A stretch of DNA of 64,000 nucleotides from Mycobacterium sp. MS1601 (lineage in GTDB: Bacteria > Actinomycetota > Actinomycetes > Mycobacteriales > Mycobacteriaceae), in assembly GCF_001984215.1 (NCBI RefSeq), contig NZ_CP019420.1:2976001-3040000 (forward strand). The letters are read 5' to 3'. Shown here in pieces: positions 60,576 through 64,000 of the stretch. Position numbers and translations under genes: made by a program. Position 1 is the first letter of the stretch, and each line of letters opens with the position of its first letter. The notes under the pieces are model-generated. The model had not been told where the DNA came from, made no database searches, and saw only the letters and a program-made list of their open reading frames with translations.

Positions 60576-62582
60576 GTGAGCGACGTCGAGCACATGCACA
60601 TGGATCACGCGCAGGGTCACGGGGGCCACGGCGGGCATCACGGCCACGCCGACCACGTGGCGCACTATCGCAGGCTGTTCTGGATCATGCTGGTGCTGGC
60701 CGTGCCGACCGTTTCGCTCTCGGCGATGTTCGCCGTGATCATCGGCTACAGGATCCCGGATATCCCTGGTGCGCAATGGATCTCGCCCGTGCTGGGCACC
60801 GTCATGTACGTCTGGGGCGGCCGGCCCTTCCTGCGCGGCGCGATCGACGAGCTCCGCTCCCGCGCGCCCGGCATGATGCTGCTCATCGGCCTGGCCATCA
60901 CCGTCGCATTCCTGTCGTCGCTGGGTGCCAGCCTGGGCTTGCTCGACCATCAGTTGGACTTCTGGTGGGAGTTGGCTCTGCTGATCGTCATCATGCTGCT
61001 GGGGCACTGGATCGAGATGCGTTCACTGGCGCAGACCGCCTCTGCGCTGGACTCGCTGGCGGCGTTGCTGCCCGACGAGGCTGAACGTGTAGACGGCGAC
61101 GCGGTGGTGATCGTGGCGCCGGCACAGCTGAGAGTCGGCGACGTGGTGCTGGTGCGCCCCGGGGCCAGCGTGCCCGCCGACGGCCGTGTGGTCGACGGAG
61201 CCGCCGACATGGACGAGTCCATGGTCACCGGTGAGTCGCGAACAGTCCGGCGTGGCATGGGGGACAACGTGGTGGCGGGCACTGTCGCCACCGACTCAGG
61301 GCTGCGGGTCCAGGTGACCGCCGTGGGTGATGACACCGCACTTGCCGGCATCCAGCGGATGGTGACCGACGCGCAGAACTCCTCGTCGCGGGCCCAGCGC
61401 CTCGCCGACCGCGCCGCCGGTTGGCTGTTCTGGTTCGCACTCGGTGCCGCGGCGCTGACCGCGGTGGTATGGGGTGTGCTCGGTCAGCCCGACCAGGCGG
61501 TGATCCGCGTGATCACCGTCCTGGTGATCGCCTGCCCGCACGCACTGGGCCTGGCAATCCCGCTGGTGGTGTCGATCGCCACCGAAAGGGCAGCCCGCGC
61601 AGGAATTCTCGTCAAGGACAGGCTGTCTTTGGAACGCATGCGGGTGGTGGACGCCGTGCTCTTCGACAAGACCGGCACCCTCACCAGGGGACAGCCTGCC
61701 GTGGTGGGCATCCAGGCCGCTGACGAGGAGGAACTGCTGGCGTTGGCTGCAGCGGCCGAGGCCGATTCCGAGCATCCGTTGGCGCGCGCCATTGTCGAGG
61801 CCGCTCGTCAGCGGGGCGTGGACGTGCCTGGTGCAACGGATTTCGCGTCTTCACCCGCACTCGGGGTCAGTGCCACGGTGCTCGGGCGCCGTATCCAGGT
61901 CGGAGGTCCGCGGCTGCTGCAGCAGGCCGGGGTCACCGGTACCCGGCAGTGGGCACCGTCGGGAGCCACGGTGCTGCATGTCCTGGCAGACGGCCACGTG
62001 CTCGGAGCGCTGGCCCTGGCCGACGAGATCCGGCCCGAATCCCGGGCGGCCGTCGCCGAACTGCACCGCCGCGGTGTCCAGGTTGTCATGATCACCGGTG
62101 ACGCCGAGTCCGTCGCGCAGGCGGTGGCCGCCGACCTCGGGATCGACCGGGTGTTCGCTGAGGTCCGCCCCGAGGACAAGGCTGCCACGGTCGCCGCGCT
62201 ACAGCAGGAGGGCCGCACTGTCGCGATGGTGGGCGACGGCGTCAACGACGCACCCGCCCTGGCGCAGGCGGACGTCGGCGTGGCGATCGGTGCGGGTACC
62301 GATGTGGCGATCGCGTCGGCCGGGGTGATCCTGGCCAGTTCCGATCCGCGGGCGGTGGTCTCGGCCATCGACCTGTCAGCCGCGTCCTACCGCAAGATGA
62401 CGCAGAACCTGTGGTGGGCGGCCGGCTACAACCTGGTGTCGGTGCCGTTGGCCGCCGGGGTGCTGGCACCCGTCGGCTTCGTGATGCCGATGTCGGTGGG
62501 CGCACTGCTGATGTCGGCGTCGACGGTGATCGTCGCGTTGAATGCCCAACTGCTGCGCCGCCTGGACCTGCGTCGATCGTAG
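60576..62582 (+). CDS. CopB-like P1B-type copper-transporting ATPase
   Basis: 668 aa. A His-rich N-terminal tail of 11 His in residues 6-30 (HMHMDHAQGHGGHGGHHG) replaces the usual Cys-x-x-Cys domain. TM motif CPH (IACPHALG near 319), phosphorylation site DKTGT near 364, TGES near 214, ATP site HP (SEHPLAR near 395) and GDGVND near 553. CPH with a His-rich tail is the P1B-3/CopB class, which exports Cu(II)/Ag(I) rather than Cu(I). The GTG start follows the CsoR-type operator. Confidence 0.92.
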   Translation: MSDVEHMHMDHAQGHGGHGGHHGHADHVAHYRRLFWIMLVLAVPTVSLSAMFAVIIGYRIPDIPGAQWISPVLGTVMYVWGGRPFLRGAIDELRSRAPGMMLLIGLAITVAFLSSLGASLGLLDHQLDFWWELALLIVIMLLGHWIEMRSLAQTASALDSLAALLPDEAERVDGDAVVIVAPAQLRVGDVVLVRPGASVPADGRVVDGAADMDESMVTGESRTVRRGMGDNVVAGTVATDSGLRVQVTAVGDDTALAGIQRMVTDAQNSSSRAQRLADRAAGWLFWFALGAAALTAVVWGVLGQPDQAVIRVITVLVIACPHALGLAIPLVVSIATERAARAGILVKDRLSLERMRVVDAVLFDKTGTLTRGQPAVVGIQAADEEELLALAAAAEADSEHPLARAIVEAARQRGVDVPGATDFASSPALGVSATVLGRRIQVGGPRLLQQAGVTGTRQWAPSGATVLHVLADGHVLGALALADEIRPESRAAVAELHRRGVQVVMITGDAESVAQAVAADLGIDRVFAEVRPEDKAATVAALQQEGRTVAMVGDGVNDAPALAQADVGVAIGAGTDVAIASAGVILASSDPRAVVSAIDLSAASYRKMTQNLWWAAGYNLVSVPLAAGVLAPVGFVMPMSVGALLMSASTVIVALNAQLLRRLDLRRS

Positions 62583-62585
62583 ACT
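62580..62585 (+). promoter_or_regulatory. -10 box for the CNNM leader transcript
   Basis: TAGACT fits a mycobacterial -10 and lies six bases before the ATG of leader ORF 1, so the transcript probably starts at or near that codon. No clear -35 is seen. Confidence 0.4.
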
Positions 62586-62590
62586 TCGCT

Positions 62591-62632
62591 ATGCTCGATC
62601 TCCACTGTCAACCATCGAGCATGAGGGAGTGA
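62591..62632 (+). CDS. Leader ORF 1 upstream of the CNNM gene
   Basis: Thirteen codons (MLDLHCQPSSMRE). The first and last parts form a perfect 9-bp hairpin, ATGCTCGAT (62591-62599) with ATCGAGCAT (62614-62622). The stop TGA overlaps the ATG of leader ORF 2 in a TGATG junction, allowing translational coupling. It starts at or near the presumed transcript end, so it may be leaderless. Confidence 0.4.
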   Translation: MLDLHCQPSSMRE

Positions 62633-62721
62633 TGAGGCGCTTGCCCGCCGAACCCCGAAGACCCGTCCCACCTCCGACTGACGCCGCGACGAGATGCAGG
62701 CCGGAGGTGGGGACATGCTGA
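62632..62721 (+). CDS. Proline-rich leader peptide ORF 2
   Basis: 29 codons, with the stop TGA (62719-62721) overlapping the CNNM start region. Seven of 29 residues are Pro, including RRPVPPPTD around residues 9-17. Codons P13-P15 form the left arm of the hairpin that hides the CNNM ribosome-binding site. The design resembles proline-codon leader peptides such as MgtL. Confidence 0.5.
   Translation: MRRLPAEPRRPVPPPTDAATRCRPEVGTC
62667..62711 (+). promoter_or_regulatory. RBS-sequestering hairpin of the CNNM leader
   Basis: CCCACCTCCG (62667-62676) pairs perfectly with CGGAGGTGGG (62702-62711), plus one U-G pair. The right arm holds the GGAGG ribosome-binding site (62703-62707) of the gene starting at 62715, so folding blocks initiation. 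The left arm lies in leader ORF 2. Confidence 0.6.
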
Positions 62722-64000
62722 CAGCCCTCGCCGGTATCGCACTCGGCATTGTCGTGGTGCTCCTGATCACCGCGCTGACCGGTTACTTCGTCGCACAGGA
62801 ATTCGCCTACATGGCCGTCGACCGGTCGCGCCTCAAAGCGCGCGCCGAGTCCGGTGACAGCGCTGCCCAACGCGCGCTGAACGTCACCAAACGGACGTCG
62901 TTCATGCTCTCGGGCGCACAACTGGGCATCACCGTCACCGGCCTGCTGGTCGGTTACGTGGCCGAACCACTCATCGGTAAGGGCGTCGGCGTGTTGCTGG
63001 GCGGGGTGAGTGTGCCCACGGGCATCGGTATCGCCGCCGGTGCAGTGGCGGCCATCGTGTTCTCGACGGTTGTGCAGATGCTCTTCGGAGAGCTGTTCCC
63101 GAAGAACCTGGCCATCGCGCGCCCCGAACCCGTCGCACGGGCTCTGGCGTTGTCGACCACCTGGTATCTCCGGCTGTTCGGTTGGCTCATCTGGCTGTTC
63201 GACCAGAGCAGCAACCTGCTGCTGCGGGCCCTGCGAATCGAACCCGTCCACGACGTCGAACACTCGGCCACCCCGAAGGACCTGGAGCACATCGTGGCCG
63301 CGTCCCGCGATGCCGGCGAGCTGCCGCGGGATCTGTCCACACTGCTGGATCGCACCCTGGATTTTCCCACCCGCTCCGCCGAGCACGCCATGATCCCCCG
63401 ATCACGGGTGGACGTCCTGTCCGCTGATCTTCCCGCTGACGAGGTGTTGGCGTTGATGGCCCAGGGGCACACCCGTTATCCGGTGGTGGGTGAGGATGTT
63501 GATGATCTGCGCGGCGTGGTGCACATGCTCGACCTGCTCGATCCGTTGGCATCGGGCGGCACGGCGGGCTCGCGCTGCCGGAAGGCCGTCATCGTGCCCA
63601 CCGCAATGCCGTTGCCGTCGGTACTGCAGGCACTGCGGGCCACCGACGACGAAATGGCACTGGTGATCGACGAATACGGTGGTTTTGCCGGTGTGGTCAC
63701 CGTCGAGGACATGGCCGAAGAGCTGGTCGGTGAGATCGATGACGAGCATGACCATGAGGCCGACGACGACGCGGTGGCCGAGGGCGACGGATGGGTGATG
63801 CCCGGCGACACTCCGCTCGACGAAGTGCACCGGCTGCTGGATCGTCCTTTGCCCGAAGGGGATTACGAGACCATCGCGGGTCTGGCCATCGCCGAGTCCG
63901 GCGGCCTGCCCGCTGTGGGCGACACAGTGGCGGTGGCGTTGCAGCCCGAAGCTGAAGACCTGGTGGCAGACGAGCCGCAGCCGCAGGATCTGCTCACCAT
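62715..64000 (+). CDS. CNNM/CorC-family divalent-cation transporter (runs off the window)
   Basis: 428 codons shown, no stop before the window edge. Residues about 1-200 form the DUF21/CNNM membrane domain (EFAYMAVDRSRLKARAESGD near 29, GAQLGITVTGLLVGYVAEPLIG near 68, and the LFGELFPKNLAIARPEPVARAL helix near 125). Two CBS domains span about 215-330 (IPRSRVDVLSAD, RYPVVGEDVDDLRGVVHMLDLL), then a CorC_HlyC acidic region (IDEYGGFAGVVTVEDMAEELVGEI near 318). The family moves Mg2+ (or Co2+) across the membrane. GGAGG lies seven bases before the ATG, inside the leader hairpin. Confidence 0.9.
   Translation, partial: MLTALAGIALGIVVVLLITALTGYFVAQEFAYMAVDRSRLKARAESGDSAAQRALNVTKRTSFMLSGAQLGITVTGLLVGYVAEPLIGKGVGVLLGGVSVPTGIGIAAGAVAAIVFSTVVQMLFGELFPKNLAIARPEPVARALALSTTWYLRLFGWLIWLFDQSSNLLLRALRIEPVHDVEHSATPKDLEHIVAASRDAGELPRDLSTLLDRTLDFPTRSAEHAMIPRSRVDVLSADLPADEVLALMAQGHTRYPVVGEDVDDLRGVVHMLDLLDPLASGGTAGSRCRKAVIVPTAMPLPSVLQALRATDDEMALVIDEYGGFAGVVTVEDMAEELVGEIDDEHDHEADDDAVAEGDGWVMPGDTPLDEVHRLLDRPLPEGDYETIAGLAIAESGGLPAVGDTVAVALQPEAEDLVADEPQPQDLLT

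Follow-up and report, generated by a model that had tools for sequence, protein, structure and literature searches.

The window (the whole stretch of 64,000 nucleotides from Mycobacterium sp. MS1601 that was analysed) ends within a gene for a CNNM protein in which the CorC_HlyC domain is present, and 132 bases separate its start from the end of a gene for a metal-transporting ATPase (Table 1). A second CNNM-CBS gene lies 3' of the first at 80 of 80 named loci and also in the window's own genome, where the two are joined by an ATGA-type overlap; by gene order, the predicted arrangement is a uORF–CNNM–CNNM operon. At one locus, the second CNNM-CBS gene (L074:3359-4372) lacks CorC_HlyC and its start overlaps the stop of the first gene. 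The neighbouring copper-type ATPase was considered as a partner of the leader and rejected, as a similar gene was found upstream (0.7–2 kb flank) in only 1 of 172 regions, the window itself.

Table 1 Features at the 3' end of the window (positions are those of the window).
Feature	Position	Strand	Remarks
Heavy-metal/copper-type P1B ATPase gene	60576-62582		3' end reaches into the leader promoter
Probable −10 hexamer of the leader promoter, TATGCT	62590..62595	+	Putative function; window-type relatives have a TANNNT similarly placed
uORF1 of the sequence-only reading, rejected	62591..62632	+	Its ATG lies inside the −10 hexamer
9-bp inverted repeat	62591..62622		Arms 62591-62599 and 62614-62622, 9/9 complementary; left arm probably not transcribed
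Shine–Dalgarno sequence of the leader ORF, GAGGGAG	62623..62629	+	From sequence; duplex energy −8.0 kcal/mol
Leader ORF (second ORF), 29 codons	62632..62721	+	ATG to TGA; MRRLPAEPRRPVPPPTDAATRCRPEVGTC; 7-nt overlap with the CNNM start (ATGCTGA)
Conserved codon motif CGA-AGA-CCC (codons 9–11)	62656..62664	+	Rare codon, then CCC proline
Left (anti-SD) arm of the 10-bp stem	62667..62676	+	10/10 complementary to the right arm, 25 nt apart
Right arm of the 10-bp stem	62702..62711	+	Holds the CNNM SD GGAGG (62703-62707)
CNNM-CBS-CorC_HlyC protein	62715..64000	+	Continues beyond the window; second CNNM-CBS gene downstream

The second of two short ORFs described in a sequence-only reading of this DNA, chained to the first by TGATG, is present as claimed. 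CNNM orthologues were collected from the genus (396 genomes with 64 close CNNM places, all taken), the order and the class (249 and 296 genomes; best 30 places each) and the contigs of named genomes (best 80 loci), sets that overlap. The resulting 205 loci gave 172 distinct upstream regions (CNNM identity of at least 59%) from Mycobacterium, Rhodococcus, Nocardia, Tsukamurella and genomes of other families. A leader ORF (uORF) was accepted if it began with ATG, had 8–60 codons, shared its reading frame with the second ORF of the window, had a Shine–Dalgarno (SD) duplex of −4 kcal/mol or better, and stopped between −45 and +75 relative to the CNNM start. Such an ORF was found in 146 of the 172 upstream regions compared with 16.0 in shuffled sequences (ten rounds, dinucleotide), counts that are not independent given the shared descent of orthologous sequences; by the same definition, 26 regions have no leader ORF. 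A control using the other frame gave 145 versus 1 of 172 and is uneven—a stop is reachable there in just 48 of 172 regions—so that the shuffles are preferred. With nearly identical settings (ORFs up to 50 codons, stops up to +60), the common mycobacterial CNNM paralogue (38–41% identical) had a leader ORF in the window frame in 0 of 20 genomes and in the other frame in 1 of 20, indicating that the leader belongs to the orthologue group of the window's CNNM. In several of these 20 paralogue upstream regions, a G+C-rich CCGGGC...GCCCGG hairpin follows a TAG (L246-L248, L254, L256-L258 and L261-L265).

The leader peptides are highly diverse (for example, MRRAKRKPRRP..., MQPHRPEAVTC, MSPDHSPQA..., MDPSRSPQT... 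and MDSDRPGP...) and range from 11 to 50 codons in length. Orthologous leaders without a proline-rich ORF had been named in the sequence-only reading as evidence that would tell against it; the ORF is instead conserved, usually with a proline in a fixed context. Judged by these comparisons, the leader is real and broadly conserved among actinobacteria beyond the mycobacteria. In the clade of 11-codon leaders (such as L015-L038), the sequence CGAG-CAAGGA-CTCG surrounds the uORF SD 14 nt before the ATG in 10 of 32 cases among the frames listed, once as CGAA/TTCG, and may form a small SD hairpin.

The junction with the CNNM gene is constrained. A set of 127 distinct uORFs, no two alike over residues 1–12, shows two main junctions with the CNNM start: a 7-nt overlap (64 uORFs) and a 4-nt overlap (54; 118 of 127 together). 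For 13 of the 127, no SD stronger than −3 kcal/mol precedes CNNM (for example, L042 and L064; in a few of the 13, such as L048, L053 and L055, it is uncertain where the uORF begins), so that re-initiation by ribosomes from the leader looks necessary.

The core that recurs within the ORF is a very rare codon (AGA, AGT, TTA, ATA or AAA) immediately 5' of a proline codon, mostly CCC. AGA occurs 0.4 times per 1,000 codons in the CNNM genes of the same loci and makes up 44 of the 161 codons that precede CCC within codons 2–15 of the uORFs. Where a CCC lies at codons 5–13, the codon before the first one is among the 15 rarest (together 18 per 1,000 in CNNM coding sequence) in 64 of 95 uORFs, compared with 144 of 823 other early codons; 32 of 127 uORFs, including some Gordonia and Williamsia leaders, have no CCC in this interval. 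The commonest form, C[AG]N-AG[AT]-CC[CTG], is in the uORF frame at 60 of 62 places, and AGACCC or AGTCCC inside CNNM genes is in frame in 1 of 34 occurrences. Across leaders, the residue before the proline varies (R, S, K, L, I or Q). Twenty-six leaders have eleven codons and carry GCG-GTC at codons 8–9; in these, codon 5 is AGA (19), TTA (5), AAA (1) or ATA (1) and codon 6 always encodes proline (CCC 23, CCG 2, CCT 1). The residue at codon 5 thus changes while its rarity stays, although arginine, leucine, lysine and isoleucine all have common codons, and decoding speed rather than residue identity therefore seems, as far as codon choice can tell, to be what is conserved before the proline. 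CCC is described in Escherichia coli as giving the slowest diproline synthesis and as the codon most dependent on its own tRNA (PMC8129111). The sequence-only reading had placed the decisive ribosome position at P13–P15; the conserved site is codons 10–11 instead, AGA-CCC (62659-62664). In L004, a close relative, the codon after AGA is ACC (Thr) rather than a proline codon.

Genome scans for the motif depended on the pattern. A loose pattern matched 257 places in the window's own genome compared with 193 in a reversed control, and a very strict, uninformative one gave 0 matches in 121 genomes of the order. In 12 chosen genomes, all five matches with 0–1 mismatch lay at leaders; with two mismatches, one of five did and four lay elsewhere.

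The 10-bp stem that was proposed to sequester the CNNM GGAGG is well founded in the window itself. Its arms are fully complementary, and the predicted accessibility of the CNNM SD is 0.12 compared with 0.31 (s.d. 0.07) after permutation of the uORF codons, with 0 of 20 permutations as low; the fold of the whole 153-nt leader is no more stable than those of shuffled sequences (z = −0.35). In an alignment of 11 leaders picked as window-type, from which the stemless L064 and L065 were excluded, 84.5% of cells are compatible with the stem exactly as drawn, a share that rises to 97.3% with one bulge allowed. The arms are nearly invariant in this clade and the loop varies in length and sequence. The covariation that the sequence-only reading had looked to for its pairing did not appear, with 0 stem pairs changed on both sides in the 11 leaders. 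Over 119 leaders, CNNM SD accessibility is 0.287 versus 0.317 after codon permutation (lower in 75 of 119), a weak effect that, together with the stemless L064 and L065, indicates that the stem is not general. From these alignments and folds, the stem is best described as a local addition of the window's clade, the constant features being the coupling and the putatively slow dicodon. The motif itself was not seen to pair with the CNNM SD region (mean 0.03; 122 leaders selected for the motif). A riboswitch was rejected, consistent with the earlier statement that the element matches none known—a search of 61500-64000 against Rfam returned no family at its gathering score (two matches fell far below theirs) and no M-box.

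Upstream of the leader ORF, the earlier picture changes. TAGACT (62580-62585), suggested as a possible −10, is present in the window alone and in 0 of 12 window-type relatives in the matching region, and a scan for the sigma-70 consensus gave no match. What the relatives share is the hexamer written TATGCT in the window: among the 13 window-type leaders (the window counted in), nine carry a TANNNT whose first base is 40–52 nt 5' of the uORF (1.1 expected), and in the remaining four it lies 32–39 nt 5' of the uORF (by eye). This hexamer contains the ATG of the first ORF, which had been read as a leaderless gene. We rejected that gene, as its start would lie at or before the start of transcription, and for the same reason transcription would be expected to begin too late to include the left arm of the 9-bp repeat. 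The repeat exists in the DNA, as had been noted, but as an RNA hairpin it was also discarded: the closest relative, L003 (87% identical), keeps the hexamer as TAAGCT and has lost the repeat. The first ORF and the hairpin are thus probably not RNA features, and of the two chained uORFs proposed only the second stands as a leader ORF. In other clades, GGAAC-N15..18-CGT[TC], which we take to resemble ECF-sigma sites, occurs within 150 nt upstream of 40 of the 127 distinct uORFs, where two-base block shuffles predict 0.9 (for example, L029, L043, L112, L135 and L157), suggesting that the same leader lies behind different promoter types. Three Nocardia leaders (L191, L194 and L225; MPDGE...) start shortly downstream of a TACTNT hexamer and are possibly leaderless; in these, SRLP or SRYP replaces the AGA form.

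The recurrence of a tiny overlapping gene with a rare codon and a proline suggests that the passage of ribosomes may set the amount of transporter. We favour, with moderate confidence, a leader, translationally coupled to CNNM, whose slow rare-codon/CCC step meters the flow of ribosomes into the CNNM–CNNM operon. Downstream of the promoter would come a single short ORF, the leader, with a stop codon that overlaps the start of CNNM, and CNNM would be translated largely by ribosomes that arrive through the leader, terminate and re-initiate at the overlap. The rare codon and the CCC proline after it would be a built-in slow step. In the window's clade, re-initiation would gain from the melting of the GGAGG-masking stem by the leader ribosome: with AGA (62659-62661) or CCC in its P site and the 3' reach of the usual ribosome footprint, a paused ribosome would extend to about 62675-62678, covering the anti-SD arm and exposing GGAGG. 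In 21 of 79 motif uORFs (7-nt overlap assumed), the proline codon lies at most 16 nt from the CNNM start, and a ribosome paused there would sit on the CNNM SD instead of freeing it. Transporter synthesis would be metered by the speed of ribosomes through the slow dicodon. The anatomy, conservation, overlap and codon signature are read directly from the DNA, and from them we infer leader translation, pausing and the direction of the effect as well as a signal. Our guess is that the leader responds to the condition of the translation apparatus, including its Mg2+ supply, because CNNM/CorC proteins act in Mg2+ efflux; Mg2+ as such is again something we infer. More tentatively, the class may be widespread in actinobacteria and gauge decoding capacity instead of a single amino acid: any of the rarest codons before CCC would report the supply of rare tRNAs, tRNA-Pro(GGG) or the state of the ribosome, and stop–start coupling would tune the CNNM operon to translation and its Mg2+.

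The overlap and the ORF are kept more widely than the motif (no CCC at codons 5–13 in 32 of 127), and peptide and length (11 to 50 codons) vary, as might be expected of plain translational coupling—a fixed bicistronic start device that gives a low, constant CNNM level, in which the rare codon slows ribosomes and nothing is sensed. This is a credible alternative that we nevertheless think rather unlikely, as it would be costly to retain a rare codon through changes of residue when a weaker SD would suffice for low output. That same change of residue bears on an arrest peptide dependent on a drug or metabolite, in which a basic residue before the proline would arrest the ribosome with a ligand in the exit tunnel. 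The conserved dicodon lies 5–10 residues from the start, known drug-induced leaders have their arrest site at a similar distance, and the ECF-like promoter precedes 40 of 127 uORFs (0.9 expected); the residue before the proline nonetheless varies (R, S, K, L, I or Q), unlike in residue-specific arrest, and what stays is rarity, leaving this explanation improbable.

Least probable of all, in our view, is an element acting at the level of RNA, with the conserved bases a site for a protein, small RNA or ligand and the ORF incidental. The nearly invariant stem arms of the window's clade would suit it, as would the small stem around the uORF SD of the 11-codon clade with its one exchange of CGAG/CTCG for CGAA/TTCG, but the motif keeps to the reading frame at 60 of 62 places, and neither an Rfam family at gathering score, nor covariation, nor pairing of the motif with the CNNM SD (mean 0.03) was found. 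The sequence-only reading had seen the logic of MgtL-like proline sensing, in which prolines—or, in intrinsic ribosome destabilization, N-terminal aspartate and glutamate—lead to stalling or drop-off at low Mg2+. The link of the CNNM family to Mg2+, the PVPPP of the window's leader and a leader from a Rhodococcus metagenome-assembled genome with a EPDPDPEPEPEPEPE run (L190), possibly a ribosome-destabilizing variant, point in this direction. Against it, polyproline is not conserved (PPP in 2 and PP in 51 of 127 distinct uORFs), only 3 of 127 have at least three D/E in the first 10 residues, most leaders of the window's genus are basic there (mean 2.6 K/R versus 0.6 D/E), and the related CorC/MgpA proteins are described as rising at high Mg2+, the opposite direction (PMC12421838); we give such a leader little credence.

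If metering at the rare-codon/CCC step is correct, a family of leaders extends across several actinobacterial families in front of one CNNM operon and is marked by the rarity of a codon, not by a residue. The AGA-CCC dicodon would then offer a small, exactly placed handle on the link between cation export and the ribosome.

In the open-licence literature, we found no description of this CNNM leader. Among known systems, the mycobacterial M-box with rv1805A shares a Mg2+-linked leader and a conserved small ORF, but its peptide and genes (pe20) are different, no M-box lies at the CNNM leader, and the main text of that paper contains neither 'CorC' nor 'CNNM' (PMC12810186). MgtL/mgtP leaders likewise place a proline-containing leader before a Mg2+-linked gene (PMC12421838, PMC8092293). 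In the CNNM leader, by contrast, neither consecutive prolines (PP in 51 of 127) nor N-terminal acidic residues (one E in the first 10 residues of the window's leader) are conserved, and the output seems to be re-initiation rather than transcription attenuation.

Closer in working is mgtQ before mgtB in Salmonella, in which a short uORF precedes a Mg2+ transporter gene whose ribosome-binding site is masked by a stem, and uORF translation frees that site (PMC8092293). A stem over the ribosome-binding site is predicted by sequence and folding for the window and its clade also, not for L064 and L065 and not in general. As described, however, mgtQ depends on two acidic residues, Asp2 and Glu5, as well as on alternative stems, and its target is an importer used at low Mg2+ (PMC8092293). 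The window's leader has R and P at positions 2 and 5 and few acidic residues; it has a single stem, its stop overlaps the CNNM start, and its CCC is preceded by a rare codon. YoaL before mgpA/yoaE in enterobacteria is likewise a short leader that runs into the start region of a cation-homeostasis gene with a CorC domain (PMC12421838), as the window's leader does with its 7-nt overlap, and exchanging the YoaL start codon for a stop reduces translation of MgpA (PMC12421838). The membrane domain of MgpA is TerC, compared with CNNM here, and the accessible text on YoaL reports no rare-codon/CCC signature (PMC12421838). MgpA and CorC of Salmonella are described as rising at high Mg2+, and CNNM/CorC proteins as linked to Mg2+ efflux (PMC12421838), so that low Mg2+ is a less likely inducer here. 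As these sources describe them, mgtQ (PMC8092293) and YoaL–mgpA (PMC12421838) are the systems nearest in working to the CNNM leader.
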